Shown in pieces: positions 4,080 through 38,177 of a DNA stretch of 45,968 nucleotides. The notes below the pieces were generated by a model. It saw nothing but the letters and a program-made list of their open reading frames with translations. It was not told the origin of the DNA and made no database searches. Numbering within the stretch: position 1 is the first letter of the stretch; every line of letters starts with the position of its first letter. Source of the DNA: Dulcicalothrix desertica PCC 7102 (lineage in GTDB: Bacteria > Cyanobacteriota > Cyanobacteriia > Cyanobacteriales > Nostocaceae); the NCBI RefSeq assembly GCF_003991905.1, contig NZ_RSCL01000021.1, positions 1-45,968 on the forward strand. The letters run 5' to 3'. The position numbers and the translations under genes were made by a program.

Positions 4080-4243
4080 CGTTAACACCTTTGTCTTCTG
4101 CCGCAAGTAGGACGACAAAGCTATTTCTTTCCCTTAAACTCAACGCTAGAGGTACTCGTGGCTAGAAAGTAAATGTTGTGGGCAATTCAAGACAATTCAT
4201 TTAATAAATGCTCAAACTGGCTAGCTACACAAGAAGGTCAGTT

Positions 4244-6202
4244 ATGAACAAATTACGCTTTCTAGTGCTAGAAGATAATCCCATTGATGTCAAACTTCTA
4301 GAATTGACCTTGAAAAAACTTAGTATTGAACACGATTTAGTACTAGTCGATACCTATGGTGCTTTTTTGTCAGCGATTGAAAGTGATTCTTTTGACCTAA
4401 TTCTTGCTGATTATTACTTAACTGATTTTAATGGGCTTGATGCTTTAAAAGTAGCGCGCACACGAATGCCAAATATACCGTTTATTCTAGTTTCTGGGAT
4501 GATATGCGAAGAAATGGCAATCGAAGCAATAAAACTCGGCGCCACTGACTATATATTTAAACAGCGTATAGGAAGATTAGTACCTTCTATTAATAGAGCT
4601 TTACACGAAGCGCAAGAAAGACGCGAACTTGAGCATACACAACAGGAACGTGACCGTTTTTTTATGCTCTCACTTGATTTATTATGTATTGCTGGACTTG
4701 ATGGATATTTAAAACGTGTTAATCCTGCTTTTGTAAATGCACTAGGTTACACCGAAGCGGAATTACTCGCTCAACCTTTTATCGAATTGATCCACCATGA
4801 TGACCGCGCACTAACGATTACCGAATATCATAAACTTATATCTGGTGGGGCGCCTACAAAAAGTCTTGAGAATCGTTATCGCTGTAAAGATGGTTCATAT
4901 AAATGGTTATCTTGGGGTGGAAATCCAATAATTGACGAAGGATTAATTTATTCTTCTGCCAGAGATATAACCGAACGCAAAATTGCCGAGCAAGAACGGG
5001 AGCAATTATTGCAGCGAGAAAAAGCAGCACGTGAAGAAGCTGAAAGAGCAAATCGTGTTAAAGATGAATTTTTAGCTGTATTATCGCACGAACTCAGAAC
5101 ACCACTAAATCCGATTCTTGGTTGGGTAAAACTTCTCAAGACTGGTAAATGTGATGCTACTCGTACTCAAAAAGCGCTTGATGTTATCGAACGTAACACT
5201 CAACTACAAACCCAATTAATCGAAGATTTACTTGATATTTCATGTATTTTACAAGGCAAGCTTACCCTTGAAACGGCGCCTGTGAATTTCAACAATGTAA
5301 TTTATTCAGCTATTGATACAGTGCGTTTAGCAGTTGATGCCAAATCAATAGACTTACAACTTGATTTACCTTCTTCTACCATACAGGTAATGGGCGATGC
5401 TACAAGATTACAGCAAGTAGTATGGAATTTATTAACAAATGCCGTAAAATTTACACCGCAGAATGGACAGATAAAAATTGGGTTATCCACACTAAACAGG
5501 AATCAAGAAGTTTGTTTTACAGTTAGTGATACAGGAAAAGGAATCAATCTAAAATTTTTACCTTACGTGTTTGAATATTTTTATCAAGAAGATAGTTCAA
5601 CAACACGCAAATTTGGAGGTTTAGGTTTAGGACTAGCAATTGCAAAGCAAATAGTCGAACTACACGGTGGAACCATTAGTGCTGATAGTTTAGGAGAAGG
5701 AAACGGCGCCACATTTACAGTAAAATTACCATTAAAGCAACAAATCACGAAAGAAGCATTTTTTGACTCAGTATCCTACGTTACAGGCTCAATTTTATCA
5801 GGTTTAAACATTCTCGTCGTCGATGATGAAATAGACTCACTCGAATACCTAGCCTTTACACTAGAACAAAACGGCGCCAAAGTCACATCCACATATCAAG
5901 CATCGCAAGCACTACAACTACTATCACAATCAAACTACGATTTATTAATAAGCGACATAGGAATGCCAGAAATGGACGGTTACGAACTAATACGTCAACT
6001 TCAAACATCCACACTCCAAAAAAACACTCCACCAAAAGCAATTGCCCTAACTGCCTACGCAGGAGAAGAAGACCAACATCAAGCGATAAAATCAGGTTTT
6101 CAAATGCATTTATCCAAACCCATAGAACCAGACACATTAATCAACGCCATAATCAAATTATACGATAATCAACCCAACAATCAAATCATACGATTACCGT
6201 AG
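4244..6202 (+). CDS. Hybrid sensor: receiver-PAS-histidine kinase-receiver
   Basis: The protein has 652 residues. An N-terminal receiver has its phospho-acceptor Asp56 in LADYYL. A PAS domain follows (about 135-250, ending in ARDITERK), then a short coiled coil and a HisKA dimerisation domain with His282 in LSHELRTPLNP. The ATPase domain shows N, G1 (DTGKG) and G2 (GGLGLGLAI) boxes, and a second receiver has Asp571 in ISDIGMPEMDG. No membrane segment is visible, so it is a cytoplasmic phosphorelay protein probably fed by another kinase through its first receiver. I chose the ATG at 4244 because AAGG lies 8-11 bases upstream; an in-frame ATG at 4208 is less likely. The signal is unknown. Confidence 0.92.
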   Translation: MNKLRFLVLEDNPIDVKLLELTLKKLSIEHDLVLVDTYGAFLSAIESDSFDLILADYYLTDFNGLDALKVARTRMPNIPFILVSGMICEEMAIEAIKLGATDYIFKQRIGRLVPSINRALHEAQERRELEHTQQERDRFFMLSLDLLCIAGLDGYLKRVNPAFVNALGYTEAELLAQPFIELIHHDDRALTITEYHKLISGGAPTKSLENRYRCKDGSYKWLSWGGNPIIDEGLIYSSARDITERKIAEQEREQLLQREKAAREEAERANRVKDEFLAVLSHELRTPLNPILGWVKLLKTGKCDATRTQKALDVIERNTQLQTQLIEDLLDISCILQGKLTLETAPVNFNNVIYSAIDTVRLAVDAKSIDLQLDLPSSTIQVMGDATRLQQVVWNLLTNAVKFTPQNGQIKIGLSTLNRNQEVCFTVSDTGKGINLKFLPYVFEYFYQEDSSTTRKFGGLGLGLAIAKQIVELHGGTISADSLGEGNGATFTVKLPLKQQITKEAFFDSVSYVTGSILSGLNILVVDDEIDSLEYLAFTLEQNGAKVTSTYQASQALQLLSQSNYDLLISDIGMPEMDGYELIRQLQTSTLQKNTPPKAIALTAYAGEEDQHQAIKSGFQMHLSKPIEPDTLINAIIKLYDNQPNNQIIRLP

Positions 6203-6255
6203 GGGCGGGTTAACCAATAACCCATAACGAAGCGTCAACCTAATAAACCCGCCCC
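6202..6255. repeat. Hairpin repeat GGGGCGGGTT / AACCCGCCCC
   Basis: A perfect 10 bp inverted repeat (6202-6211 with 6246-6255) starts in the stop codon of the hybrid kinase gene. A relative lies at 43317-43371. It could stop transcription of the kinase gene, but no T-run follows. Confidence 0.6.
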
Positions 6256-6309
6256 GTCTCCATCACATTTATAGTAACAATCCATAAATTCAATATAGAT
6301 AAAGTTTAA

Positions 6310-6420
6310 TTATATATCTTCTTGATTTTCATTATCTTTATTCTCAGCAGCACCTTGTTCCTATTCAGAAATAATGCTTTTAATTTCCGAAGCAGTAATA
6401 TTAACCTGTTGTGATTTTGG
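6310..6420 (-). pseudogene. C-terminal gene fragment with an internal amber codon, cut by a MITE-like element
   Basis: Read on the minus strand, this stretch gives a protein-like tail (QQVNITASEIKSIIS, then TAG at 6361-6363, then EQGAAENKDNENQEDI and TAA). The fragment stops at its 5' side exactly where the inverted-repeat element at 6419 begins. The amber codon is one base change from CAG. I do not recognise the parent gene. Confidence 0.45.
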
Positions 6421-6613
6421 CTCTTCCGTAATTAGCGTGCTAAATTACTTAAAAATAAGCTTGAAATTCTTACTAGGCTTTTATTACAGCCAATTTTTGA
6501 TTACAATACTGCATTCTAACTAAAATGTACGACTATAAGCGACTGTAAGGCTTGATTTTAAAGGAAAGTTATCGACTGTGATTAAAATTTAGCACGCTAA
6601 TTCCGGAAGAACC
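6419..6613. mobile_element. MITE-like element, 195 bp, with 28 bp terminal inverted repeats
   Basis: The terminal repeats 6419-6446 and 6586-6613 match at 26 of 28 positions (core AATTAGCGTGCTAAATT). The interior is non-coding and AT-rich. Size, long terminal repeats and lack of an ORF fit a miniature inverted-repeat transposable element mobilised by a transposase elsewhere. I see no clear target duplication. No matching full-length insertion sequence is present in this window. Confidence 0.65.
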
Positions 6614-6718
6614 GAAAAGATTGGTGTATGTAGAGTATAGAGTTTTGCTGCTTTTCAGTACGTAAAATCAATTTTGCCTGTGTAGTCATATAATATCCAT
6701 ACTAGCAACTAATCTTAT

Positions 6719-7438
6719 ATGTCTCAATTGATACACAAGGCTGCTGTCAGTGTCTTATTGTTTGCGCTGTCTGGACTAGTAAATTATAAACCAACTCAAG
6801 CAGAAACGGCGCCACCACAAAGCGCGCGCGTATCACAAGCAAATTCAATCAAATATCAAATATTCGATACCAACTCTCCAAACAAACGGTATGCTATAGC
6901 ATGGGGAATTCCGGGTAGAAAAAGTAATTCTCCAGAACTTGACGAAAAAGATGATTTTGAGAAAGTCGAAAACTATTTAGTTGATACCAAAACGAATAAA
7001 GTTATTACCAAGCTTAAATACTCTAAAACCTTCCCTAATCAAAATCATGGTGGAATAACAGCAGCATGGGCGCCTAATTCTAAATTAGTATTAGTTGTGC
7101 ATAACGGAAAATGGCAACCACGAAATGTGTCTTTGGTAAATACTAGTGGCGTTCAAGTTGGTATATTCGACCAGCTAGTAAAAGATACACGCACTTATTT
7201 AGCCAAAAATGACGGCGCCGCTTTTCAAAAAAATAAAGAAAAACTAATTTTCAGTTTAGATACTTCTTCCAAATCTTTCAAACTGACAAACAACAGATTT
7301 CAAATTCCTATAATTACCTATATCCCTAAAGCACTAAATGGGTATGAAGCCAATGTACTATTAACTTATCAAGTTGACACTAACGGTAATCCAAAATTAA
7401 ACCTAGTTAACGTCAAAAAAGTAACACCTAGTCCTTAA
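6719..7438 (+). CDS. Secreted protein of unknown function
   Basis: The 239-residue protein starts with a basic and hydrophobic signal peptide (VSVLLFALSGLV, likely cleaved after about residue 28, PTQAETAPP). The mature part has regular beta-rich segments such as YAIAWGIPG and AAWAPNSKLVLVVHNGKW, suggesting a propeller-like or beta-sandwich fold. I do not recognise a specific family. A TATAAT at 6689-6694 is a plausible -10 box, though no good -35 box accompanies it. Its last 11 bases overlap the end of the convergent porin remnant. Confidence 0.75.
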   Translation: MSQLIHKAAVSVLLFALSGLVNYKPTQAETAPPQSARVSQANSIKYQIFDTNSPNKRYAIAWGIPGRKSNSPELDEKDDFEKVENYLVDTKTNKVITKLKYSKTFPNQNHGGITAAWAPNSKLVLVVHNGKWQPRNVSLVNTSGVQVGIFDQLVKDTRTYLAKNDGAAFQKNKEKLIFSLDTSSKSFKLTNNRFQIPIITYIPKALNGYEANVLLTYQVDTNGNPKLNLVNVKKVTPSP

Positions 7439-7772
7439 CTCTATTATTAAGCTCTTGAAGTTCTTGATTTAATTTCTGTTGTCGCTGTACTAAATTTTCC
7501 AAATCCGACTTTGGCGCCAAACCATTTGTTTGATTTGGAATATTTTGTTCTACTTGATTTAAACAAGCAGCTAATGCAGCGGCAAACTCATAACGAGTCA
7601 TTGCCCTATCTCCTCGAAATGTGCCATCTGGATAACCGGAGAGACATCCTAGTTGAGGATTATTTTGATTATTGGTTTGTGCTAATAGCTTTGAGGAATT
7701 AAAACAAATATTAGTTATACATATACTAGCTGCACTTGTAAAATAAATAAGTCGTGAAAGTTTAAAAAGCAT
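7428..7772 (-). pseudogene. Truncated SLH-domain porin (N-terminal remnant)
   Basis: Residues 1-30 form a signal peptide. Then follow LGCLSGYPDGTFRGDRAMTR and YEFAAALAACLNQ, the second half of the S-layer homology domain found in cyanobacterial iron-uptake/OprB-type porins, and the start of the coiled coil (LENLVQRQQKLNQELQELNN). The frame then stops at residue 114, where this family normally continues into a beta-barrel of several hundred residues. The first SLH helix (normally DVQPTDWAFQAL-like) is also missing between signal peptide and GCLSGYP, so there are two deletions. It could still be secreted as a small SLH protein, but decay is more likely. Confidence 0.7.
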
Positions 7773-7814
7773 ATCTTTAGATATAAGCTAATGTGATTAT
7801 AATTTGTTTGAAAG

Positions 7815-7842
7815 GACGGGCAAGGATGCCCGTTCCACAAGA
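7815..7842. repeat. Interspersed repeat, GGGCATCC family, copy 2
   Basis: This is the complementary half of the same core as at 1218 (GGGCAAGGATGCCC, then CCACAAGAC). GGGCA and TGCCC give it a short internal hairpin. It lies between the porin remnant and the ndh operon terminator. Confidence 0.65.
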
Positions 7843-7886
7843 CAAACACTCTCTTCCTTTGTGTCTTTGTGGTAGAAAAAAATTAA

Positions 7887-7916
7887 ATTCCCGACAACTC
7901 TAACGAAGTCGGGAAT
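7887..7916 (-). terminator. Intrinsic terminator of the ndhCKJ operon
   Basis: A perfect 9 bp stem (ATTCCCGAC / GTCGGGAAT, loop 12) lies about 50 bases downstream of the ndhJ stop. On the minus strand it is followed by TTAATTTTTTTC, a good U-tract. Confidence 0.8.
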
Positions 7917-7929
7917 CTTATTTCTTATA

Positions 7930-7966
7930 CTCAGCACTCAATACTCAGCACTCAGCACTCAGCACT
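7930..7966. repeat. Heptamer tandem repeat CTCAGCA x 5
   Basis: Five 7-base units (the second is CTCAATA) lie directly after the ndhJ stop codon, between gene and terminator. Short tandem heptamers of this kind are typical of heterocystous cyanobacteria. Confidence 0.85.
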
Positions 7967-7968
7967 AA

Positions 7969-8493
7969 TTAATAAGCGTCTTGGAGTTCGTAAAAATCGG
8001 GTGAGATGTAATCTTTACGTAGGGGGAAACCAACCCAATCTTCGGGCATTAAAATGCGCTTTAAATTAGGATGTCCTTCGTAAACGATGCCGTACATATC
8101 GTAAGATTCGCGCTCTTGCCAGTCGGCAGTTCTCCAAATCCAGTACACAGATGCGACTCTAGGATTTTCGCGCGGCAAGAAAACTTTAATACGCACTTCT
8201 TCGGGTTTGTCAACATTATCAGCCATTTTTGCTAAATGGTACATGCTGACTAATTCCTGTCCGGGGCCCATATCAATGCCACATTGACATTGAAGATAGT
8301 TAAACCCATATGCATATAAAGCGGTTGCAGTTGGTAAAAGATAATCTGCTTCGATTTTAATTATCTCTACTCCAGCACTGTCAGGCGCCAATGACTCGTT
8401 ATCAAACCCATTTTCTGTGAGCCATTGAGCAACCTTACCAGCTTGTACTAAAGCTTTCTCGGATGCTACTACTGGTTGTGATTCATCAGCCAC
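7969..8493 (-). CDS. ndhJ: NAD(P)H-quinone oxidoreductase subunit J
   Basis: The 174-residue protein is the 30 kDa-type (NuoC) subunit of the peripheral arm of NDH-1 on the thylakoid membrane, which serves respiration and cyclic electron flow around photosystem I. Family signatures are [17 protein letters not shown] and [20 protein letters not shown] near the C-terminus. Full length is normal. Its start overlaps the end of ndhK by 8 bases, indicating translational coupling in the order ndhC-ndhK-ndhJ. Confidence 0.97.
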
Positions 8494-9238
8494 GGTCGGT
8501 TGCCTCCTTTTGTGTTTGTGATGTTAGCAACGCTGGTGGTACCGCCATACCCATACCTTCGGTTAATTCCTTCGGTGGTGTATAACGTGCTTCTGACTGA
8601 ATGTACTTGCCAGTGAGAATTTGTGGAACGGACTTCATGTTGTGAGTTGTGCTGTAGTAGCGGTGTGTTTGCTTGATTACAACACCACGTTCTTGCATTG
8701 AGTCGTTAGCAATCTTCTTACGTAGCTTAATAATCGCGTCGATAATAGCTTCTGGACGAGGAGGACACCCTGGTAAATATACGTCCACAGGAATTAATTT
8801 ATCTACTCCACGTACTGCACTGGGTGAGTCAACACTGAACATTCCACCTGTAATTGTACAGGCGCCCATTGCAATTACATACTTTGGTTCGGGCATTTGC
8901 TCGTACAAACGCACCAACTGAGGCGCCATCTTCATGGTGATGGTACCAGCAGTAATAATTAAATCAGCTTGACGTGGGCTAGAACGAGGAATAAGACCAA
9001 AACGGTCGAAGTCAAATCTCGAACCAATTAGAGCTGCAAATTCAATAAAGCAGCAAGCTGTTCCAAACAGCAAAGGCCATAGACTCGAAAGTCTTGCCCA
9101 GTTATATAAGTCGTCAACGGTTGTTAAGATAACATTTTCCGACAGGTCAGAGGTTACCGTCGTGCGCTGAATTGGGTTTAAGATACGCTCAGTTTGTTGA
9201 GTTGTTATCTCTTTTGCCGCATTAGCATCTAAGACCAT
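8486..9238 (-). CDS. ndhK: NAD(P)H-quinone oxidoreductase subunit K (iron-sulfur)
   Basis: The 250-residue protein is the PSST/NuoB-type subunit, which holds the N2-type [4Fe-4S] cluster next to the quinone site. The ligand region GTACCFIEF carries the paired cysteines, with further cysteines in [11 protein letters not shown] and [10 protein letters not shown]. The N-terminal 40 residues and the C-terminal tail are the usual variable cyanobacterial extensions. It overlaps ndhC by 10 bases upstream and ndhJ by 8 bases downstream. Confidence 0.97.
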
Positions 9239-9591
9239 TCCAAAGCTCCTTTACGCCATGCGTATACTAGGGCAACTACAAGAATCGCTATAAAAATAAG
9301 CGCTTCTATAAACGCTAACAACCCTAGACGGTGAAATGCTACCGCCCAAGGATACAAAAATACTGTCTCCACATCGAAGACCACGAAAACAAGCGCAAAC
9401 ATGTAGTAGCGGATGTTGAACTGAATCCAGGCGCCACCAATCGGTTCCATACCAGATTCGTAAGTTGTGCGTCGTTCGGGGTTGCGCCCACTGGGTCGCA
9501 AAAGCTTAGACGCACTGAGAGCTAGGGCTGGAACTAGGCTACAGACAAGCAGGAAGCCTAGAAGGTACTCGTAACCGCTAAGGACAAACAC
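9229..9591 (-). CDS. ndhC: NAD(P)H-quinone oxidoreductase subunit 3
   Basis: The 120-residue integral membrane subunit has three hydrophobic helices (about 8-25, 63-85 and 93-110). The loop with [17 protein letters not shown] and the acidic [14 protein letters not shown] segment are diagnostic of NuoA/NdhC. It is the first gene of the ndhCKJ operon. The promoter must lie in the 205 bp divergent region shared with rubA; I could not pick a clear -10/-35 pair there. Confidence 0.97.
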
Positions 9592-9796
9592 AATATATTT
9601 CTACCGTGAGAGAATGAAACGAACTTTGTTACCTTAATTTACATACATTATATCGTCTTAGCTTTTTTGAATCTGACAAAACATATAGTTAGGTAATTTG
9701 ATTCGTTTTTGGTTGTGATAGAAAAATCTAACACTTGTGTCATAATTTGTAACGTATATTTAAGATTCGCCTGTAAAATACCAGGCATCTGGGGCT

Positions 9797-10192
9797 ATGA
9801 GCGAACACGAAAATGAACCAGTAGTTGACACAACGCCAGACGTTGATGAAAGTGCTGAAAGTGCTGAAAGTGCTGAAACTACCGAGTTAGACCGCTACGA
9901 ATGTCGTTCCTGCGGTTACGTTTACGAACCTGAAAAAGGAGACGATAAACGTGATATCCCTCCTGGAAGACCTTTTGATGAACTACCTTTAATTTGGCGT
10001 TGTCCTGTTTGCGGCGCCAAGAAAGCAGCTTTTGTCAATATTGGCCCTGCGGGTAGTGCATCAGGTTTCAAAGAAAACCTTGGTTTTGGCTTAGGCGTGA
10101 ATACACTAACCCCAACGCAAAAGAACCTTCTGATTTTTGGTGGTCTAGCAGCAGCCTTTTTACTTTTTATGAGCCTGTATGGCTTGCAATAA
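9797..10192 (+). CDS. rubA: Membrane-anchored rubredoxin (RubA type)
   Basis: The 131-residue protein has an acidic N-terminus (three SAE repeats, about 18-26), a rubredoxin domain with iron ligands in CRSCGYVY and CPVCGAKK, and a C-terminal membrane helix (NLLIFGGLAAAFLLF). In cyanobacteria this protein supports assembly of photosystem II (and possibly photosystem I) at the thylakoid. The neighbours ycf48 and psbEFLJ, which share this PSII assembly role, support the call. A hairpin repeat separates it from ycf48. Confidence 0.93.
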   Translation: MSEHENEPVVDTTPDVDESAESAESAETTELDRYECRSCGYVYEPEKGDDKRDIPPGRPFDELPLIWRCPVCGAKKAAFVNIGPAGSASGFKENLGFGLGVNTLTPTQKNLLIFGGLAAAFLLFMSLYGLQ

Positions 10193-10197
10193 CACAT

Positions 10198-10225
10198 GTA
10201 GAGACGTGATTAATCATGTCTCTAC
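10198..10225. repeat. GTAGAGACG hairpin repeat, copy 1
   Basis: A nearly perfect inverted repeat (GTAGAGACGTGATT / AATCATGTCTCTAC) lies 5 bases after the rubA stop. Relatives lie at 11304, 12661 and 25034. It could attenuate transcription between rubA and ycf48. Confidence 0.7.
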
Positions 10226-10270
10226 GGACGTTTTAATTTGAACATTAACGAAATACATTCAAAAATACTA

Positions 10271-11299
10271 ATGCTTTTAATTGCTAGATTTTGGCGGCGA
10301 ATATTGACGACGGCTGTAGTGATTTTGATTTGCGTTGGTTGTAGCAGCGTTCCTAACACAGCATACAATCCTTGGTCGGTAATATCTGTGCCCACGGATG
10401 CAAAACTACTCGATGTCGGTTTTACCTCAGATAAACAACATGGTTTTATAGTAGGTAGTAATTCTGCTGTTTTAGAAACTAAAGATGGTGGTAACACTTG
10501 GAAAGAAGTTCCCCTTCAACTCGATAGCGAAAATTATCGTTTGACTTCCGTCAGCTTTTCTGGTAAAGAAGGCTGGATAGTTGGAGAGCCAGCTTTGATG
10601 CTACACACAACTGATGAAGGTCGCTCATGGTCGCAAATTCCCCTTAGTGAAAAATTACCAGGCGCCCCTGTTAGTGTTGTGGCATTAGGTGATAATAAAG
10701 CGGAAATGGCGACCAATGTAGGCGGTATTTATCAAACTTCAGATGGTGGTAAAAACTGGAAAGCTCAAGTTGCTGAAGCTGTTGGTTTTGTACGTAACAT
10801 GAAGCGTTCACCAGATGGCAAATACGTAGCAGTATCCGCGAAAGGTAATTTTTACTCAACTTGGGAACCTGGACTAAACGCATGGGTTCCTCACAACCGT
10901 AACAGTTCACGTCGCGTCGAAAACATGGGCTTTACCTCAGATGGAAAGATGTGGATGATAGCGCGTGGTGGTCAACTTCAATTTTCTGACCCAGAAAAAC
11001 CAGAAGAATGGCTCGAAGCTCAATATCCAGAATTTTCTACCAGTTGGGGTTTACTCGACATGGCATATCGTACACCCGATGAAATTTGGGTTACTGGTGG
11101 TAGCGGTAACTTGCTACGCAGTGCCGATGGTGGTAAAACCTGGGAAAAAGACCGTGATGTCGAACAAGTACCCGCTAACTTGTTTAAAGTCGTTTTCTTC
11201 TCACAAGACCAAGGGTTTGTACTAGGAGACCGTGGTGGTTACTTACTTAAGTATCAACCTGATATCGCATCTAACACCAAATTGGCGCCTGCCGCATAA
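10271..11299 (+). CDS. ycf48: Photosystem II assembly factor Ycf48 (HCF136)
   Basis: Ycf48 is a lumenal seven-bladed beta-propeller that binds newly made D1 and helps form the PSII reaction centre. The N-terminus has a signal peptide ending in a lipobox (ILICVGCSS), so the protein is lipid-anchored. Repeated blades show the family motif TxDGGxxW: TKDGGNTWKE, TTDEGRSWSQ, TSDGGKNWKA, SADGGKTWEK. I chose the ATG at 10271 because the signal peptide starts there; an in-frame TTG exists at 10238. The gene sits between rubA and psbEFLJ, the usual cyanobacterial arrangement. Confidence 0.96.
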   Translation: MLLIARFWRRILTTAVVILICVGCSSVPNTAYNPWSVISVPTDAKLLDVGFTSDKQHGFIVGSNSAVLETKDGGNTWKEVPLQLDSENYRLTSVSFSGKEGWIVGEPALMLHTTDEGRSWSQIPLSEKLPGAPVSVVALGDNKAEMATNVGGIYQTSDGGKNWKAQVAEAVGFVRNMKRSPDGKYVAVSAKGNFYSTWEPGLNAWVPHNRNSSRRVENMGFTSDGKMWMIARGGQLQFSDPEKPEEWLEAQYPEFSTSWGLLDMAYRTPDEIWVTGGSGNLLRSADGGKTWEKDRDVEQVPANLFKVVFFSQDQGFVLGDRGGYLLKYQPDIASNTKLAPAA

Positions 11300-11303
11300 T
11301 AAT

Positions 11304-11337
11304 GTAGAGACGCGAGGAACATCCATCGCGTCTCTAC
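11304..11337. repeat. GTAGAGACG hairpin repeat, copy 2
   Basis: The arms GTAGAGACGCG and CGCGTCTCTAC pair perfectly around a 12-base loop, just after the ycf48 stop. Confidence 0.75.
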
Positions 11338-11552
11338 GGGATGTAAATTTTTTTATGAGAAAAACGTTGCGACTTGTAACTCTTTCTAAACTTTGTAGGA
11401 TAATAAACAAGTAGGATATGCGCTACATGATGTCGCGCGCTGCTAGTTTAACTTTTACTTCGTCTCAAAATAGATGGGGTAATATCCGCTGCTAAATGTG
11501 AGAAACTCTTAGCAGAGGGTTTTAAATGTTTCAGATTCATGTAGGAGAGCCA

Positions 11553-11801
11553 ATGTCAGGTACCACTGGAGAGCGTCCGTTTTCGGACATAATAACCAGC
11601 GTTCGTTACTGGGTAATTCACAGCATCACCATTCCAGCACTGTTTATTGCTGGTTGGCTATTTGTTAGCACCGGACTCGCGTATGATGTTTTTGGTACTC
11701 CCCGTCCAGATGAGTACTTTACTCAATCGCGACCTGAAGTACCAATCGTTAACAACCGTTTTGAAGCAAAACAACAAGTAGAAAAATATATTGGCAAGTA
11801 G
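11553..11801 (+). CDS. psbE: Cytochrome b559 alpha subunit
   Basis: The 82-residue protein binds the haem of cytochrome b559 with PsbF in the PSII core. The haem-ligand histidine is in [11 protein letters not shown], followed by one membrane helix and a conserved lumenal tail ([17 protein letters not shown]). I placed the start at 11553, which gives the canonical [13 protein letters not shown]-terminus with AGGAG just upstream. An in-frame ATG at 11526 would add nine residues not known in the family. It is the first gene of psbEFLJ. Confidence 0.98.
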
Positions 11802-11810
11802 TATCAAACT

Positions 11811-11948
11811 ATGACTAGCGGTAATAACATAAACCAACCAATTCAGTATCCTATTTTTACGGTTCGCTGGCTGGCAGTTCACACTCTAGCTGTACCCACC
11901 GTTTTCTTTTTAGGTGCTATCGCATCAATGCAATTCATCCAACGATAG
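11811..11948 (+). CDS. psbF: Cytochrome b559 beta subunit
   Basis: The 45-residue protein begins [20 protein letters not shown] and ends MQFIQR. The histidine in [12 protein letters not shown] is the second axial haem ligand, next to a single membrane helix. Length and sequence are canonical. It starts 9 bases after psbE. Confidence 0.98.
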
Positions 11949-11984
11949 GATTCAACGATTAGAACTTAAGGATACAAGGATATT

Positions 11985-12104
11985 ATGGATCGTTCACCAA
12001 ATCCAAATAATCAACCCGTTGAGCTAAACCGAACTTCTTTATACCTCGGACTATTGCTCGTTTTCGTTTTGGGAATTCTATTCTCTAGTTACTTCTTTAA
12101 CTAA
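11985..12104 (+). CDS. psbL: Photosystem II protein L
   Basis: The 39-residue single-helix PSII subunit begins [20 protein letters not shown] and ends SSYFFN, both canonical. It is located near the QA side and the PSII dimer interface. It starts 36 bases after psbF with AAGGAT upstream. Confidence 0.98.
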
Positions 12105-19416: not shown

Positions 19417-19522
19417 TGTTCAATCTTGTAATAAAAATAACGATTTTGCGTGGAAACGGGGTTTGTTTATGACGAATTTTTCTGTGGCAAGAAGCTAGAA
19501 CTCGGCTAAAGTGGATAACCAT

Positions 19523-19831
19523 ATGAGTACTAGTAATAATTTTGAGTCAGTAATGTTATCCTACAAACTTCAAGCTATTAATGTAGCGGTACACGATGCT
19601 GTAACGGTTTGTCAAGGGGATACTATCCAACTTTTGGCGTTACTACGTCAATTAGAATCTTTACACCGTGAAATCCGCGAGGGTCCTTTTCAAGCGAATT
19701 TACCAGAAAATCGTCAAGCGCTTTACGCTCTATTACGGGAAATCGAATCTGAGGGAGGTTGGCCCTATATCGAACGCATGAAGTTACAAGCTTTTCTCAA
19801 GTTCTTAGAACAGGAGGAAGAAGACAAATAA
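19523..19831 (+). CDS. Conserved cyanobacterial protein of unknown function
   Basis: The roughly 102-residue, largely helical soluble protein shows LLALLRQLESLHREIREGPF and NRQALYALLREIESEGGWPY. The ATG at 19523 gives MSTSNNFESVMLSYKLQ; another in-frame start lies 12 bases upstream. It is strongly charged with no cysteine cluster or membrane segment. I recognise it only as a conserved hypothetical protein of filamentous cyanobacteria that lies near psbO. Confidence 0.75.
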   Translation: MSTSNNFESVMLSYKLQAINVAVHDAVTVCQGDTIQLLALLRQLESLHREIREGPFQANLPENRQALYALLREIESEGGWPYIERMKLQAFLKFLEQEEEDK

Positions 19832-19840
19832 TGCCATTTT

Positions 19841-19909
19841 AGGTTTTAGATTTTGGATTTTAGATTTTAAATTCAATCCAAAATCCAAAATCCGTAATCT
19901 AAAATCTAC
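19841..19909. repeat. Imperfect inverted repeat of ATTTTGG/CCAAAAT heptamers
   Basis: TTTTAGATTTTGGATTTTAG on the left is mirrored by AATCCAAAATCCAAAATCC and AATCTAAAATCT on the right. It sits exactly between two convergent genes and could act as a bidirectional terminator. Similar heptamer hairpins are common in Nostocales. Confidence 0.7.
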
Positions 19910-22900
19910 TTGACACCTTCACAAAGATTACGGTCACGTGCATCAACGTTACGGTTGTACTTGAGATAATCTCCTACCCAGCTACATCCACGTTTTAATA
20001 AATCGTTTAAATCTAAATTCCACAAAATAATTGTTTTGTCTTCGCTTGCAGATGCGAGTGTTTGACCGTCTGGACTCCAAGCTGCGCTTAGTACTGGTGC
20101 ATTATGTCCATTAAAGGTTTTGATGAGTTTACCTTCACGACTCCATAGTTTTACTGTGCTATCCCAACCTGCTGCTGCTAAAACTTCTCCGTTGGGACTA
20201 AAGGTTACTGAGTTGACGCTATCGCTATAACCTCTAAGCAAGGTTTTGAGTAATTTACCATTCCAATCCCATAATTTGACTGTGTTATCCCAACCAGCTG
20301 ATGCGATTATTTTATCGGTAGGACTAAAGCTTGTGCCTAAAACCCAGCTATCGTGTGAGGTAAGGGTTTTTAATAATGTACCGTCTCGGCGCCAAAGTTT
20401 GACGGTTTTATCATCACTAGCTGAGGCAAGAATTTTTCCATCCGGACTCCAAGCGACATTATTTACCCAACCATTATGTCCAGATATCGTTTTGACGTTT
20501 TTGCCGTCACGGTTCCACAGTTTAATGGTTTTATCTTGACTCGCTGATGCTATAAATTCTCCATCCGGACTCCAAACTACGCTTCTAACTTTATCAAGAT
20601 GTCCCGTTAAAGTTTTAACTAATGACCCATTTAAATTCCAAATTTTAGCGGTTTTATCATGACTTCCAGTCACAACAAATTTTCCAACTGGGTCAAAACT
20701 GACGCTTTGAACTAAGTCTGAATGTCCAACTAAGGTTTTGTCGAGGCTTGTGCTAGAAATTCCATCCTTTTTATTATGTTTCCATAGCTTAACGGTGTTA
20801 TCTCGACTTGCCGATGCTAACATCTCACCGTTCCGACTCCAAACAACACTTGTAACTCCACCTTCATGGTTCTTTAGAACTGGTAATGAAGTTGATGCTA
20901 AATTCCATAACTTTATACTTTTGTCCCAACTGGCAGATGCGAGTGTTTTTCCGTCTGGGCTAAAAGCAATACTAGAAACAGCATCGTTGTGACCTTTAAA
21001 TGTTTCGACTAACCGACCGTCAATACTCCACATATTAATTGCATTATCATCTCCAGCAGATGCTAAATATTTACTGTTTGGACTAAAGCTCAGATTCCAA
21101 ACTGTGGCAGTGTGATTACGTAGTGTTTTTTCTAACCGATAATCAAATGGACGTTGTGCATTATTACCTACTTTACGCCAAAGCTGCACGGCGCCTGTAC
21201 GATTTCCTAATACTAAGTATTGACTATCTGGACTAAATGCTACGGATGTTACACCTATAGAATTTTCTGGCAGTGTTGTTACTAAACTTCCATCTCTGTT
21301 CCAAATTTTGACTGTTTTGTCTTGACTCGCAGAAGCTATTAATTGACCATTCGGGCTAAATGTTACCCAGTTAATTTCTGCTGTATGTCCACGTAAAATT
21401 CTTACTAACTCACCATTAGAACGCCAAATTTTGATTGTACTATCTGCGCTACCTGTCGCTATTAACTCACCGTCAGGGCTAAAGTTAACGCTGTAAATAC
21501 CTTGCGAATGTCCATCTAATGATTTATATGGTCGTGTTTCAAATTCGCCGTTTTCTTTTTGGCGCCACAGCTTTACAGTATTGTCTAAGCTGGCAGATGC
21601 TAATGTTTTCCCATCGGGACTAAAAGCAATACTAGTAACAGCAAAGTCATGTCCATCAAGAGTTTGAACTAGCGTACCATCTGGGCGCCAAATTTTGACC
21701 ATCCGGTCAGTACTACCCGAAGCAATTAATTTACCATCTGGACTATAAGTAACACCCCAAAGAACATCTGTATGCCCTTCCAGACGGTTGATTTCTTTAA
21801 CTCCATACACTGCTTGCTGTAATGCTGTGACTACACGCGAAGAAGTATCACCTTGAACTCCATTCGATTGTTTAAGTTTTCGCCAAGCTCGTAAACTCTC
21901 AATCAAAGCATCAAATTCCTTGGAAGAAGCAAACAAAGCTTCGCTTGCAGCAGTAATTGCACTTATTCGTAAGTTATCTTCGCTACGTTCGGCACGCACG
22001 CGATTTAGAACAGCCGCACGCTTTTGAAGGTCTGCTTGCCACCATAAACCACCAATTGAGGCAGTACAAAACAACAGTGCCACACCAGCCACTCTTGCTT
22101 CGCGTAAGCGTCTTTGAAGTACTAAAGTCAGTTGTTCTTGACTGAGTTTTTGAGCAACTTCAGCACGAGTTTTTTCAAATCTGACCTTTTCAAGTTCAGC
22201 AACAATGCCGTAGTTATTTTTTTGACGAATAGGCTCAACTAAATAATCATGAACAAGCTGGTAGCGGTCGCCAGATTCTTCACGCATTCGCAGTACTAAA
22301 CCACTGCCGACTAAAATATCGAGTATTAACTCCCAATCAGAATCTAAATTAAATAACGTCTCAGCACTTTTGGTTAACGCAACTGCAAGCTCAATTTTAG
22401 TTCTGAGTGGTCGCGTACCTTTTTCATCGGTTAGTTCAAATAATAATTTCCAAGTTAGCTGCTCGTTTTCTCGACCACAGTCTTTAATAACCTCCGTCAA
22501 CCAACGTTCTACTAACTTCGATGAACCACCAGATTCTTTATACTCTTCGAGAGTTTTAATTTTTTCGGCTTGAAGTTGGGCGCCAACTATTTGCAATTCA
22601 ATCGGGTGAACTTGCTCAACTTCTGTCGCTAAATCTTGAACTAACTGATTAATTAAATCATTACTTAGTTCATAGTGTGAGCGAGAAGTCAAAATATCAA
22701 TAACGCCAATAGCATCCTGAACTGAGAAATTCCCTAAATAATAACGAATGTCTTTATCTAATATATTTTTATTAATTACCCCTAAATCGTATGTGTTACG
22801 GTTGTTTTCGTTACACAGACGCTCAAACTCTAATAAATAATGTAAATAATCTTCACGAAGCGAAAAAATAATCTTGACAAAAGGAACATTTAGACACTGA

Positions 22901-24879
22901 CTAACAAATTTATAAAAATGAATTCTTTGACTTTGCTCACGAACAGCGAAAAAGAATTCTTCTAATTGGTCAAAAATTAAAACAACTGTATAATTACGTT
23001 CTGCTAATTCCCGTAGCTTGGCAAGTATTATCGACGTTGAAAATTTGATTGATACCGATAAATCTGTTTGCGCTAATGCTTGATTAATATTTCGACCTAA
23101 TACTGTAATCCAATCGCTATATACCGATAAAACAATTGGTATGGCAATGCGGTCGCCAATTACCTTTTCTGTTAAAGTTGGGACTAACCCAGCACGCAAC
23201 AGCGAACTCTTACCAACACCGCTTGGCCCATGAACAATAGTTAACTTACAGTCTGTACGCCCTAAACGTCCAATTAAATTATTAATATCTTTTTCTCTTC
23301 CAGATGCAGCAATTTCTTGTGCTACTTCTTCGGGTATATAAGAAATTCTTGATTGGTTAATTGAAGTACACGCGACCACATTCCCTGTCGAACCATTTAC
23401 TTTGTAACGTTGTGGTTGCAGCGTAGTGGCGCCAATAAATGCTCGCAATCCATACTGATGTTCTACTTGAACTTTTTCTTGCTTCAGGTTGAAAGCTTCA
23501 CTATAGTTATGACGCTCAAAAAAGTAGAGTGAACGTAATTCTTCAACTATCTCTAAATATAAAGATGGCTCATACTGTACCTCGCAAACAACCTTTGCCC
23601 ACTCCAAATTATTTATTGCCTCTTCCCACTCTCCTAAATGACGTTGTGCGCGTCCTAACAATAAAAGATACCAACTTTCTTGAGCGCGTGAGACATTTAC
23701 AGAAACTTCTGCAATAGTCCGGGCTGTATTCGCCAATTCATATGCTTGTAGCCAATTTGACCGTGAAGCCGCAACAACTGCTAAAAATCCATATGCTTGG
23801 GCTTCAGAAGCTTTATCGGGGTAGATGGCATATAGCTCTAATGCTTGAGAAGCATAAGTATGTAACTCATCCCATGCTTCTATATGCTTCAGCATTTGTA
23901 AGAGCGGAGGTATAAATTGAGCTACTTTATCTTGGCGCCCAATTGACTCAAATGTTGAAAGTGATTTTTTAAACCAGACAATTCCTTCAAGCCAGTAGCT
24001 GCGATTCAATGCCGGACGTAAATCTGCCATTCGCCCATAGCATAAGCCAAGGTGGAATAACACTATAGCCTTATAAACAGACTGTGAGAATGTGAAAGTG
24101 TGGTTTTCATCGTCCCAAAGAGCCAAAGAGTGCTGGTAATGAGATAGCGCTTCTTCAACTTGGTCATTAATATAAGCGTTATATCCTGAAACAAATTCTA
24201 AACAGCGGTTCAGTTCTGGTTCAAGTTGAATATTGTATATGCGGAGTAAGTCTTCGCGTGCGGTTTCGATTTCTTTTGAACTATCCAGGGATGAAACTTT
24301 ATCAAGGCTGTGGCTTTCATCCGTACTATTAAGAATATAATTAAATAAAAATTCAGTATTTTTACGGATTAAAGCTATTAACTCCTCCTTTGTCATTTCA
24401 AACTTAATCGTGGTTGCTGCCCAACTTTTAAAGTCAGGTGCAAGTCGTGACAATTGAGTAGCTACTTCATCTTTAAGCCATAACACCAAAGGAAAAGGAA
24501 AAGTATCAGCATAAATATCGCGTGCTTGGTTTAACCCAGTAAGTAAATCATCAATTTTGACAACCGATTCAAGCCCAAACACCATTAAAGCTTCGGGTAA
24601 AGCATCACCAGCAACAGCAGGAATATCTAAATATAAATCTGAAATTATTGTGTTGTGTAAATTTGCGGTTGTCAAAGCAGAAAGCTCTAGCTCACGTAAG
24701 TAAATGTCTTTAGTTAGTGTGCGTAAGTTTTCTAAAACTGATGTACGTAATTGTCCGTAGTTGCATCGGACTAATATTAGGGCAAATTGACCTTTAGAAA
24801 GCGCAACCGCTCGAATTAGACGTTGTAATGAACGATGATTCGCATTGGCGATTGCAGCCGTGAACTGCCACTCTGTCAT
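19906..24879 (-). CDS. TPR-STAND-type NTPase with a membrane helix and 14 WD40 repeats
   Basis: The 1657-residue protein has five regions. Residues 1-190 resemble a P-loop-like fold lacking Walker A (LQRLIRAVALSKGQFALILV, then ALMVFGLESV), seen at the front of other cyanobacterial TPR and WD40 proteins. About 220-480 are TPR-like helices (EEALSHYQHSLALW, EWEEAINNLEWAK). About 545-900 are a STAND-type NTPase with Walker A GPSGVGKSS (about 551) and Walker B VVLIFDQLEEFF (about 630). One hydrophobic helix follows at about 930 (ARVAGVALLFCTASIGGLWW). About 1030-1625 contain 14 WD40 repeats, enough for two seven-bladed propellers; repeat 5 lacks GH at its start. Such proteins usually sense a ligand with the propellers and oligomerise through the NTPase. 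The AAA ATPase gene lies 184 bases upstream on the same strand, so a common transcript is likely. Confidence 0.9.
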   Translation of the reverse strand: MTEWQFTAAIANANHRSLQRLIRAVALSKGQFALILVRCNYGQLRTSVLENLRTLTKDIYLRELELSALTTANLHNTIISDLYLDIPAVAGDALPEALMVFGLESVVKIDDLLTGLNQARDIYADTFPFPLVLWLKDEVATQLSRLAPDFKSWAATTIKFEMTKEELIALIRKNTEFLFNYILNSTDESHSLDKVSSLDSSKEIETAREDLLRIYNIQLEPELNRCLEFVSGYNAYINDQVEEALSHYQHSLALWDDENHTFTFSQSVYKAIVLFHLGLCYGRMADLRPALNRSYWLEGIVWFKKSLSTFESIGRQDKVAQFIPPLLQMLKHIEAWDELHTYASQALELYAIYPDKASEAQAYGFLAVVAASRSNWLQAYELANTARTIAEVSVNVSRAQESWYLLLLGRAQRHLGEWEEAINNLEWAKVVCEVQYEPSLYLEIVEELRSLYFFERHNYSEAFNLKQEKVQVEHQYGLRAFIGATTLQPQRYKVNGSTGNVVACTSINQSRISYIPEEVAQEIAASGREKDINNLIGRLGRTDCKLTIVHGPSGVGKSSLLRAGLVPTLTEKVIGDRIAIPIVLSVYSDWITVLGRNINQALAQTDLSVSIKFSTSIILAKLRELAERNYTVVLIFDQLEEFFFAVREQSQRIHFYKFVSQCLNVPFVKIIFSLREDYLHYLLEFERLCNENNRNTYDLGVINKNILDKDIRYYLGNFSVQDAIGVIDILTSRSHYELSNDLINQLVQDLATEVEQVHPIELQIVGAQLQAEKIKTLEEYKESGGSSKLVERWLTEVIKDCGRENEQLTWKLLFELTDEKGTRPLRTKIELAVALTKSAETLFNLDSDWELILDILVGSGLVLRMREESGDRYQLVHDYLVEPIRQKNNYGIVAELEKVRFEKTRAEVAQKLSQEQLTLVLQRRLREARVAGVALLFCTASIGGLWWQADLQKRAAVLNRVRAERSEDNLRISAITAASEALFASSKEFDALIESLRAWRKLKQSNGVQGDTSSRVVTALQQAVYGVKEINRLEGHTDVLWGVTYSPDGKLIASGSTDRMVKIWRPDGTLVQTLDGHDFAVTSIAFSPDGKTLASASLDNTVKLWRQKENGEFETRPYKSLDGHSQGIYSVNFSPDGELIATGSADSTIKIWRSNGELVRILRGHTAEINWVTFSPNGQLIASASQDKTVKIWNRDGSLVTTLPENSIGVTSVAFSPDSQYLVLGNRTGAVQLWRKVGNNAQRPFDYRLEKTLRNHTATVWNLSFSPNSKYLASAGDDNAINMWSIDGRLVETFKGHNDAVSSIAFSPDGKTLASASWDKSIKLWNLASTSLPVLKNHEGGVTSVVWSRNGEMLASASRDNTVKLWKHNKKDGISSTSLDKTLVGHSDLVQSVSFDPVGKFVVTGSHDKTAKIWNLNGSLVKTLTGHLDKVRSVVWSPDGEFIASASQDKTIKLWNRDGKNVKTISGHNGWVNNVAWSPDGKILASASDDKTVKLWRRDGTLLKTLTSHDSWVLGTSFSPTDKIIASAGWDNTVKLWDWNGKLLKTLLRGYSDSVNSVTFSPNGEVLAAAGWDSTVKLWSREGKLIKTFNGHNAPVLSAAWSPDGQTLASASEDKTIILWNLDLNDLLKRGCSWVGDYLKYNRNVDARDRNLCEGVK

Positions 24880-25032
24880 AAAACTAAAACCGGGCTAAAA
24901 AGAATTATGTTCACCAAAACGCGGAAACTAGATTTTGGCATTGTAGGCGTTGGAATGGATACTGTGTAATTACGGAGTCTTTAGAAGGCTTTCTCTTCCG
25001 AACGCATTAAATACAGTAAAAATACTTAGGAA

Positions 25033-25100
25033 TGTAGAGACCGAATATGTTCGGTCTCCTCCGCTACAATTCCAAAGACGCGACATGTCGCGTCTCTACA
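25033..25100. repeat. GTAGAGAC hairpin repeat, copy 4, overlapping a gene end
   Basis: TGTAGAGACCGAA pairs with TTCGGTCTC, and AGACGCGACATG pairs with CATGTCGCGTCT beside it; the outer TGTAGAGAC and GTCTCTACA also match. The right part encodes the last residues and stop of the AAA ATPase gene. Confidence 0.75.
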
Positions 25101-26428
25101 ATTTGTCTTTGCCACGCTTGTACTTTTTCGGTTTCAGCTAGTGCTGGACTGATACCAAACCAACGTCCTGTGGCATCGCGGTATTCAAAAACAAACATGC
25201 TTCGCAATAGTCTTTGATATTCAGATTCGCCTTTAAGGCTTTGCTGATTAACTACTTCGTAGAGTAATTCCCATTCTTCTTCGTTTATCGCTAGCAGTAA
25301 ATCGTCGCGATAATCTTTGATTACAGACTCTAAACAATCAGGTGAGAATGGAGGGTCTTGACGTTGTAAACAGCTATAAAGCAATCCTAAAAGATTACGA
25401 ATATGACCTCCACTCACACGGCACAACCTATCCAAAGTTTCAGGCGCCTCAAATAATTCTGTAACTAAGTTTTCACGAGCGTTCCAGGCAATTTCGGGGA
25501 ATGCTCGCGCTAACACAAGCTGACGTAATAAGGACATTCCTGGCTCGTAATCACTGCCTGAACGCTGTCTTACTAACACCATTGGCAGTACTTTTGGCGC
25601 CACCCCACCACCCAAACGGTTTTTCAGGGTTTCGTATTCGTTTGAGAAAATCAGCGCTAATGGAATTGTGTACACAACATGACATTTCAGGCGCCGCAGT
25701 TGTTCACCTCGGTCGATAAATAAATATTCGGGTTGCGAACGTCCCGATGGCATTGGTCGCATGTCAACTCGGTCTAAGTTATCAACTATTACAACCAATC
25801 CATTTTGACCTCGCATTTTAAGTTGCTCGTTAGCTCGGTCTAATAATTCGTCGTTGATTGCTTGCAATATGCTATTTGTACGAGGTTCAAGATATTGCCG
25901 CAATTGGGAGCGCATCTGTGGACTATCTTTTGTCTTGGCGCTAATTTTTGCAATTCCAATTGAAAATTCTGCTTCTGTGGAAATTTCTAGCGGAGTTTGC
26001 AAGAATTCACCGATTTCTTTGAACAGGTTGCTGAAGTATCCTGGTTTCGTTTTGATCCCAACTGCTTCTAAACTGGCGCCTACCTGACGGGCAATACTAA
26101 GCAATATATCGCTGACATCGATATCCGCCATGTCTAAATCTTGGCTTGATTCAAAATAAACTACATGAAAACCCGACATTTCCAGTTCAGTTTTCAACCG
26201 TTGTAACTCTGTTGATTTTCCACAGCCAATATGACCCGTAAATAGCTGACATGTTGGATCATCCGGAGAAATACGGACTATTGTACGTTGTAATTCCTCT
26301 ACTATTTTACAACCACGTACATCAGAAAAGTCTATGTAGTACCGTCTGTCAGTGGCATCACCCATAACCAGTGTTTTGCTAGGGTTACAGGCTTTAAAGA
26401 AACGCGATAAGTTTATTGTTGTTCTCAT
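25064..26428 (-). CDS. AAA/STAND-like P-loop ATPase
   Basis: The 454-residue cytoplasmic protein has Walker A GHIGCGKST (65-73) and Walker B LVVIVDNLDRV (211-221). An Arg/Lys-rich segment precedes a helical C-terminal half containing LDRLCRVSGGHIRNLLGLL, which resembles the sensor/winged-helix part of STAND and ORC-like ATPases. An N-terminal segment (MGDATDRRYYIDFSDVRG) precedes the P-loop. The final ten residues (about IVETRHVASLEL) are encoded by a GTAGAGACG hairpin repeat and are probably not native. The downstream partner is the TPR-WD40 NTPase. A fragment of a paralogue lies at 37903-38155. Function is unknown; an AAA switch acting with the WD40 protein is inference. Confidence 0.88.
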   Translation of the reverse strand: MRTTINLSRFFKACNPSKTLVMGDATDRRYYIDFSDVRGCKIVEELQRTIVRISPDDPTCQLFTGHIGCGKSTELQRLKTELEMSGFHVVYFESSQDLDMADIDVSDILLSIARQVGASLEAVGIKTKPGYFSNLFKEIGEFLQTPLEISTEAEFSIGIAKISAKTKDSPQMRSQLRQYLEPRTNSILQAINDELLDRANEQLKMRGQNGLVVIVDNLDRVDMRPMPSGRSQPEYLFIDRGEQLRRLKCHVVYTIPLALIFSNEYETLKNRLGGGVAPKVLPMVLVRQRSGSDYEPGMSLLRQLVLARAFPEIAWNARENLVTELFEAPETLDRLCRVSGGHIRNLLGLLYSCLQRQDPPFSPDCLESVIKDYRDDLLLAINEEEWELLYEVVNQQSLKGESEYQRLLRSMFVFEYRDATGRWFGISPALAETEKVQAWQRQIVETRHVASLEL

Positions 26429-27071: not shown

Positions 27072-27905
27072 ATGGCTGATACAGCATCAGTGTCTCGCAC
27101 AGATTTAGAAGGTAGACGAAAAAAACTAAGGAAGCAGCGACGCAAAAAGATTATTCAAACTGTCTGGCAAAGCTTTGCTCTTGTTTCTCTTACAGGTGGT
27201 TTGTTATGGGCAACTGTTCAACCAACCTGGTTAGTTAAAACTGAACAAGACGTTAAAGTTTCTGGTAACCAATTACTTTCTGCTGACAAAATTCAGTCGC
27301 TGTTGCCTTTGTCTTATCCGCAATCAGTATGGAAAATTGAGCCATCACATATTGCCCAATCGCTACAAAAGCAACCATTGATTGCACACGCTTCGGTGAC
27401 TCGTCGCTTGTTTCCACCAGGGTTAATTGTTGAAGTAATTGAACGAGTCCCTGTTGCCATCGTGCAAAAAACTCAAGCTTCGGACGAAAAAACTCCATTG
27501 TTGTTGCTTGATGCAACAGGTGTACTAATTAATGTTGATACAAAAAATTTGAAAACGCTTAAAGCAGGATTACCCAATCTTAAAGTAATTGGTTCTCCCG
27601 ACCAATACCGGGAGTTTTGGGGGATGCTTTACGAAGCGGTAAGCCAAAGTTCTGTCGAAATCACCAAAATTGATTGTCAAGATTTGACCAACGTGATTTT
27701 AACAACTGAAATTGGGCTTGTACATCTAGGCGCCTTGGGGCCTCAACTAACCGAGCAAATCAAAGTTCTTGCACAAATGCGACACCTGCCTGCAAAAATA
27801 AATACAAATAAAATACAGTATATAGACCTTACAAATCCTAATTTACCAACTATGCAACTTCAAAATAGTACAAAAGAATTGATTACTCCTCGTGCCAAAC
27901 GCTAA
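27072..27905 (+). CDS. ftsQ: Cell division protein FtsQ/DivIB
   Basis: The 277-residue bitopic membrane protein has a basic cytoplasmic tail (RRKKLRKQRRKKI, about 15-27), one membrane helix (about 32-50) and a periplasmic POTRA domain (VSGNQLLSADKIQSLLP, then HASVTRRLFPPGLIVEVIER) followed by the beta-domain. It links the Z-ring to the septal peptidoglycan machinery. ftsZ lies downstream on the same strand, separated by an unknown gene. Confidence 0.93.
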   Translation: MADTASVSRTDLEGRRKKLRKQRRKKIIQTVWQSFALVSLTGGLLWATVQPTWLVKTEQDVKVSGNQLLSADKIQSLLPLSYPQSVWKIEPSHIAQSLQKQPLIAHASVTRRLFPPGLIVEVIERVPVAIVQKTQASDEKTPLLLLDATGVLINVDTKNLKTLKAGLPNLKVIGSPDQYREFWGMLYEAVSQSSVEITKIDCQDLTNVILTTEIGLVHLGALGPQLTEQIKVLAQMRHLPAKINTNKIQYIDLTNPNLPTMQLQNSTKELITPRAKR

Positions 27906-37902: not shown

Positions 37903-38155
37903 TTAATAAAGATAGCCTTCATCAAGTCCTACTTTATCATGATATACTTTCGCTAAAGCTTGCCATTCATTAGAAAAAACTGTATTACGGTAAGTATTTC
38001 GTAATTCGCTAATAGCACGCTGTACATCTCTCGTTTGAATAGGTAGCTTGTCAGTATATTTAATTGTCTCCTTCATTAATAATAGTAAATTTCTGACATG
38101 ACCGCCACTCATCAAACACAATCTGTCTAATGCCTCTGGCTGCTCGAATATAATC
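37903..38155 (-). pseudogene. C-terminal fragment of a paralogue of the AAA ATPase at 25064-26428
   Basis: The frame reads IIFEQPEALDRLCLMSGGHV then RNLLLLMKETIKYTDKLPIQ and ends in GLDEGYLY. This matches the LFEAPETLDRLCRVSGGHIR and RNLLGLL segment (about 335-360) of the intact AAA ATPase in the same window. The P-loop half is missing, and the break at about 38155 abuts a HigA-like fragment on the other strand. The region between the match and the stop resembles the helical C-terminus of the intact protein, so this piece kept its own end. Confidence 0.7.
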
Positions 38156-38177
38156 TACTATAGAACGATTTGAGTCT

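Follow-up and report, generated by a model that had tools for sequence, protein, structure and literature searches.

What are two adjacent ATPase genes doing between psbO and ftsQ in the cyanobacterium Dulcicalothrix desertica PCC 7102, and do they belong there? We addressed this question in a 45,968-nucleotide stretch of its genome (contig NZ_RSCL01000021.1, positions 1 to 45,968; hereafter the window), in which the gene of a small AAA ATPase is followed, at 184 bp from stop to start, by the gene of a 1657-amino-acid (aa) protein that we named BIG; its first ~190 residues were named NDOM (Table 1). The divergent neighbour of the AAA gene is presumably ftsQ. An initial annotation, made from the sequence alone, regarded the pair as a possible islet inserted among housekeeping genes. 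We found instead a two-gene ATPase module that, in many cyanobacterial families, is kept at the same chromosomal site next to the division genes, and that carries a conserved domain without Pfam counterpart. This domain, three further full pairs in the genome and the ancestral character of the locus had not been noted in the initial annotation.

The open frames and their motifs confirmed the two annotated minus-strand P-loop genes, each with intact Walker A and B. The AAA protein carries TGHIGCGKST (Walker A) and LVVIVDNLDR (Walker B), both kept in five paralogues from the same genome, and its Pfam matches (AAA_22, KAP and ATPase_2) are all weak, KAP alone exceeding its cut-off. BIG scores 105.6 bits with PF20703 (nSTAND1; curated cut-off 27.1), which identifies it as a STAND NTPase, and its Walker motifs (GPSGVGKSS and LIFDQLEE) are invariant in four copies of the same genome; the NB-ARC profile scores far lower (16.7 bits, E 0.0045, under its cut-off of 23.5). 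As annotated, BIG is built like the STAND proteins of the Apaf-1/NLR type, which operate by a switch-and-oligomerise logic, in that the NTPase precedes what would be two seven-bladed WD40 propellers (14 WD40 stretches). It differs from Apaf-1 by having nSTAND1 instead of NB-ARC, a TPR region before the NTPase, NDOM in the place of CARD, an added membrane helix and a separate AAA partner.

The proposal that the two genes form a module was borne out by their co-occurrence, adjacency and correlated divergence. Among 195 genomes of the order, searched with thresholds of E 1e-30 for AAA and 1e-3 for NDOM, AAA is present in 125 and NDOM in 122; 117 genomes possess both, 13 only one of them (AAA in 8, NDOM in 5) and 65 neither (Fisher p 2e-36, a value inflated by the relatedness of the genomes). 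Considering the best 150 matches per search, a listed NDOM lies directly downstream of 71 of the 150 AAA. From the 79 AAA and the 79 NDOM matches without a listed partner we fetched 40 each, the AAA at random and the NDOM with 9 hand-picked ones first. NDOM was found downstream of 31 of these AAA and was missing at 9 (some at contig ends), while AAA was found upstream of 19 NDOM (one cut by a contig end) and was missing at 21, namely 15 BIG genes, 5 standalone NDOM genes and 1 at a contig end. When the loci were pooled, NDOM came directly after 70 of the 86 distinct AAA genes (66 in BIG, 4 in short proteins). From these counts we conclude that AAA nearly always brings NDOM, and that BIG brings AAA less strictly. 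The spacing between the open frames ranges from +4 to +2278 bp at ftsQ, and the frames overlap in 27 of the 39 pairs located elsewhere. The AAA and NDOM distances are correlated over 64 pairs (r 0.745; maximum after shuffling, 0.147). The 11.4-Mb genome of D. desertica itself contains three further full pairs, in which AAA is followed by NDOM-TPR-nSTAND1, with WD40 repeats on contigs C34 and C13 and without them on contig C11.

NDOM is the constant part beside AAA across differing contexts. It occurs in short NDOM-only proteins downstream of AAA (eight loci, L100, L103, L123, L132, L318, L319, L328 and L329), and before TPR arrays downstream of a distant AAA (four loci, L330-L333). On contig C3 of D. 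desertica (locus L013), a distant AAA precedes an NDOM-NACHT protein, the NDOM of which is weakly recognised (E 9e-6). In genome G077 (contig C20, positions 3364-10667 of locus L334), two AAA genes precede a single protein endowed with two NDOMs, and the second AAA bears a fused TIR domain (E 1.2e-31). AAA lies upstream of NDOM in nine of the ten loci retrieved to examine these contexts, the exception being L337. In a survey of 244 genomes of the cyanobacterial phylum, NDOM was found in 58, belonging to the order, to the same class outside the order (seven genomes) and, weakly, to another class (one genome). Its conserved residues include R120, W134 and D149. The window NDOM had no match among the Pfam families and no credible relative among solved structures (best E 0.12), where AAA had none up to E 0.01. 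Two rounds of profile comparison detected no similarity of NDOM to the AAA or nSTAND1 NTPase profiles, and the possibility that it is a degenerate P-loop or inactive STAND domain was provisionally dropped after these empty comparisons. As is the case for effector-associated domains, NDOM copies are present both on a core component and elsewhere in the genome; no NDOM fused to an effector domain was seen in the loci examined, a partial census, in which the sole TIR is that carried by AAA. Side observations concern the AAA-TIR protein, which has ~110 additional residues without Pfam match, and the standalone NDOM genes (~160-205 aa; L310 and L311-L329), which many genomes possess besides BIG genes (in D. 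desertica L310, contig C7, 371114-371569) and which lie near the same gene families in several Nostocales.

The ftsQ locus answers the question of origin. Of 77 genomes with both genes listed, 50 have a pair member divergent from ftsQ, and these represent 11 family codes; 50 of the best 150 AAA matches are divergent from ftsQ within 4 kb. Among the 80 named loci nearest to the query AAA (including Fischerella, Nostoc, Calothrix, Mastigocoleus and Richelia intracellularis HH01), ftsQ is divergent from AAA in 58, and NDOM lies at most 3 kb downstream in 75 and at 3.6 kb in one more. For the 41 Nostocales of this set, ftsQ is present in 40 (the contig of the other starts first), NDOM in 41 and psbO in 36 (five loci end first). 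In a quick tree of 86 AAA proteins, the ftsQ label requires 6 changes, as compared to a mean of 28.9 after shuffling, and the ftsQ copies group mostly by family. Of 135 Nostocaceae genomes, 87 contain AAA matches of 78% identity or more (88 in total), the next matches being at most 68% identical; the one genome with a doubled AAA orthologue is 38% contaminated. Because of this synteny, the tree and the identity gap, the ftsQ-locus copy is recognised as a single-copy orthologue that was passed on vertically at a fixed site, with losses in several lines, and the copies away from ftsQ arose via duplication or transfer. The synteny and the AAA tree rule out the inserted islet. The initial annotation had opposed to this islet a pair kept at the same place in all Nostocales, which holds for the most part, though not entirely: the orthologue is found in 87 of the 135 Nostocaceae genomes, and three of eight Nostocaceae ftsQ loci (window included) lack the pair. 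The five others read psbO, 106-aa gene, BIG, AAA, ftsQ, ftsZ; in the three that lack it (G035, G191 and G058) the flanks are kept, the 106-aa gene adjoins ftsQ, and the absence is best read as loss. Of 60 hand-picked ftsQ loci, among which a divergent AAA was listed for 32 and not for 28, 33 carry a full or near-full AAA, one a fragment and 26 none, counts that do not represent a rate. Our literature search on gene order around ftsQ, psbO or sigF returned nothing useful.

The ftsQ copy is also strongly constrained, as judged from the identity to the window copy and the ratio of nonsynonymous to synonymous change (pN/pS) in 41 Nostocales loci; the synonymous sites being near saturation, these ratios are comparative only. 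AAA (median identity 82.5%, n=40; pN/pS 0.116) resembles ftsZ (85.4%; 0.113) and sigF (81.6%, n=21; 0.114), and both psbO (76.4%; 0.194) and ftsQ (55.0%; 0.331) are looser. The BIG domains show 60-68% identity and pN/pS of 0.22-0.27, the WD40 region having the lowest value (0.218) and the short tail reaching 0.29. A fast-evolving WD40 receptor at ftsQ was rejected, as its pN/pS is no higher than that of the rest of BIG. With an AAA constrained like ftsZ and WD40 repeats that are not fast-evolving, an arms-race sensor is disfavoured at this locus: the ftsQ copy resembles a housekeeping gene in its behaviour, rather than a receptor in pursuit of changing ligands.

The annotated membrane helix of BIG is indeed predicted, with a hydrophobicity that is just moderate in the window copy (best 19-residue mean hydropathy 1.51). 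This mean is at least 1.6 in 101 of the 131 relatives surveyed, three of which (L080, L093 and L154) have no WD40 repeats and should not count; these three drive the low-hydropathy group, and by eye about four copies with WD40 repeats have no helix (L010, L082, L099 and L112). In the 101 strong-helix copies the N-side charge is more positive (+3.1 versus +1.0), so that their propellers would face outside the cytoplasm. The C-terminal part of BIG has a median of one cysteine besides the two-cysteine tail, which is found in 120 of the 131 relatives, and the N-terminal part contains ~1.2% cysteine. The cysteine poverty of the propellers was set aside as a weak marker of topology (hydropathy versus cysteine number, rho 0.04 overall).

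Comparison with known systems returned no direct counterpart of the pair. Against PADLOC-DB 2.0.0 we obtained no full-length match to an anti-phage system protein, only repeat matches (HEAT-ARM_XIII over WD40, and TPR) and weak P-loop matches, and NCBIfam offered no fitting family. We found no description of the AAA-BIG pair in the open-licence literature searched, including a survey of prokaryotic WD40 proteins (PMC5587647), PMC6113231 and PMC4057619. Among published ideas, the two-gene nSTAND2 operon comes nearest; it is described as combining an active STAND module with an eroded one (Kaur et al. 2021, PMC8195603), in systems enriched, as a theme of that paper, in bacteria of multicellular habit. 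Like the window pair, it comprises two adjacent genes with an NTPase each, and one of the proteins joins a constant head to modules that vary. Unlike it, the window pair has neither PF20702 among the matches listed for AAA and BIG nor a GT4 or HEPN domain, and NDOM bears no detectable similarity to the AAA or nSTAND1 profiles. The ternary MoxR-vWA system (2020, PMC7159879) resembles the pair in that a STAND-like or adaptor-bearing protein cooperates with an AAA-class ATPase that is a protein of its own. However, vWA and MoxR are absent among the matches listed for AAA and BIG, the AAA family is different, and the window pair is flanked by psbO, the 106-aa gene and ftsQ, where a MoxR-vWA operon would carry the vWA partner and the MoxR-type AAA.

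Built on the architecture and adjacency of the two genes, the association of AAA with NDOM across contexts, the vertical inheritance at ftsQ and the strong constraint, our tentative proposal, to which we give slightly less than an even chance, is that the pair encodes one signalling complex, in which the membrane-anchored STAND receptor BIG signals through an AAA-NDOM interface; it supposes AAA-NDOM binding, a membrane topology, oligomerisation, a ligand and an output. BIG would be a membrane-anchored, NLR-like receptor, with probably non-cytoplasmic WD40 propellers holding the sensing surface, the nSTAND1 NTPase acting as the switch and the cytoplasmic TPR-NDOM head as the output face, while the small AAA ATPase would be the dedicated partner of NDOM. 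Once activated and oligomerised, BIG would present its NDOMs to load or arrange AAA, which would then relay the signal. The copy at ftsQ most probably serves for the standing surveillance of the envelope or of stress, and the copies located elsewhere may have other, perhaps conflict-related, jobs. The pair offers a handle on bacterial NLR-like proteins when they are not obviously immune receptors, and a resource, namely a defined AAA and NDOM couple, conserved residues for mutation and natural pair-less strains for comparison.

Several observations weigh against such a complex. The window helix lacks the charge bias (+2 and +3), and L082 keeps the two-cysteine tail without the helix, which makes the cysteine evidence on topology suggestive only. 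The pairing is loose, with BIG lacking AAA in 15 of 40 NDOM regions, AAA lacking NDOM in 9 of 40 AAA regions, and L337 devoid of AAA. The AAA distances also correlate with those of nSTAND1 (r 0.635), as linkage alone would give, and Pfam recognised no output or effector domain in AAA or BIG of the window. That AAA and BIG function apart and owe their adjacency to history, AAA working solo and BIG as an independent receptor, e.g. one controlling inorganic carbon in the manner of Hat, would accommodate the solitary AAA and BIG genes and the open frames up to 2278 bp apart at ftsQ. Hat, which we take to be Sll0163, is a WD-repeat protein of Synechocystis PCC 6803. It is reported to control inorganic carbon transport (PMC4057619), and is likened to BIG, as a cyanobacterial WD-repeat protein with a reported role, by description only. 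We nevertheless regard separate action as improbable, since NDOM stands beside AAA in several different settings, among them the locus with two AAA and two NDOMs, and since the correlation of AAA is higher with NDOM than with nSTAND1. A role of the pair in regulating cell division or septal growth would explain why it is kept beside ftsQ-ftsZ, in a conserved divergent position found in 11 families and at 58 of the 80 named loci. But position is weak evidence when taken by itself, the flank with psbO is kept as well in Nostocales, nearly all of the 28 ftsQ loci (of 60) picked as AAA-unlisted truly have no AAA, and further copies exist elsewhere, so that we hold this role to be very unlikely.

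An NLR-like conflict system against invaders such as phages, in which the WD40/TPR parts would sense an invader product, the STAND protein oligomerise and the AAA partner trigger death or dormancy, appears rather unlikely to us. It would agree with the view, in PMC8195603, PMC7159879 and PMC10907252, that nSTAND1 and NACHT proteins are predicted cores of conflict systems, with the AAA-TIR fusion, with the several paralogous pairs per genome and with the standalone NDOM genes. On the other hand, the pair at ftsQ is an orthologue present in single copy and inherited vertically, with an AAA constrained like ftsZ and WD40 repeats without excess change, PADLOC gave no full-length match and the window pair has no recognised effector domain. 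Given the AAA-TIR fusion and the published placing of nSTAND1/NACHT proteins in predicted conflict systems, a defence role is possible for the family. Extending our proposal of a signalling complex, one could imagine, and we think this unlikely, that AAA-NDOM represents an undescribed cyanobacterial class of two-part NTPase switch, where a dedicated AAA would dock via NDOM onto receptors that can replace one another, be it a membrane STAND-WD40, NACHT or TPR protein or NDOM by itself; the ftsQ-ftsZ copy would be the ancestral, outward-facing envelope sensor coupled to division or growth, and conflict-type copies, such as AAA-TIR, would be derived.

Table 1. Positions of the gene pair, its domains and its neighbours in the window.
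Feature	Position	Strand	Basis
AAA ATPase gene, 454 aa	25064..26428	-	open frame; weak AAA_22/KAP/ATPase_2 matches; orthologues and paralogues
BIG gene, 1657 aa (NDOM-TPR-nSTAND1-membrane helix-WD40)	19906..24879	-	open frame; domain matches
NDOM, BIG residues ~1-190	24310..24879	-	conserved across 65 aligned members; window copy without Pfam match
TPR region, BIG residues ~200-490	23410..24282	-	TPR_12, E 5.9e-11
nSTAND1 NTPase domain of BIG	22234..23301	-	PF20703, 105.6 bits; found at this place in the genome-wide nSTAND1 search too
Predicted membrane helix, BIG residues ~928-946	22042..22098	-	19-residue mean hydropathy 1.51
14 WD40 repeats, BIG residues ~1030-1623	20011..21792	-	14 WD40 stretches
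C-terminal tail with two cysteines, GC.W..DY...C	19909..19989	-	read in window copy
ftsQ (presumed), conserved divergent neighbour	27072..27905	+	conserved neighbour across loci compared
106-aa conserved gene, other flank; adjoins ftsQ at pair-less loci	19511..19831	+	locus comparison
Decayed fragment of a second, more distant AAA gene (probable)	37906..38163	-	similarity match

The annotated fragment of a paralogous AAA gene, ~12 kb from the pair, is real (E 4.9e-8 over 37936-38163; 60 bits) and probably stems from a second and more distant AAA family, of which it would be a decayed copy. An intact distant AAA (~290 bits) lies ~11 kb from ftsQ in genome G077 (contig C33, 86570-87856), and at a similar distance from AAA in G414. 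Elsewhere in D. desertica (contig C38, positions 9199-12030 of locus L011), a 943-aa protein with an AAA domain behind an NTPase-TPR part adjoins another STAND-like gene, and similar long frames occur in G484, G474, G147 and G173. The same genome has 33 nSTAND1 matches, ten of which are strong (E 1.8e-94 or better), in frames of 1324-1656 aa, and none of these ten belongs to an NDOM pair. Finally, in two genomes of one family (G056 and G033, f2; loci L116 and L124), a solitary AAA of the window-AAA family directly precedes a gene that we take, from its sequence, to be shikimate dehydrogenase-like.

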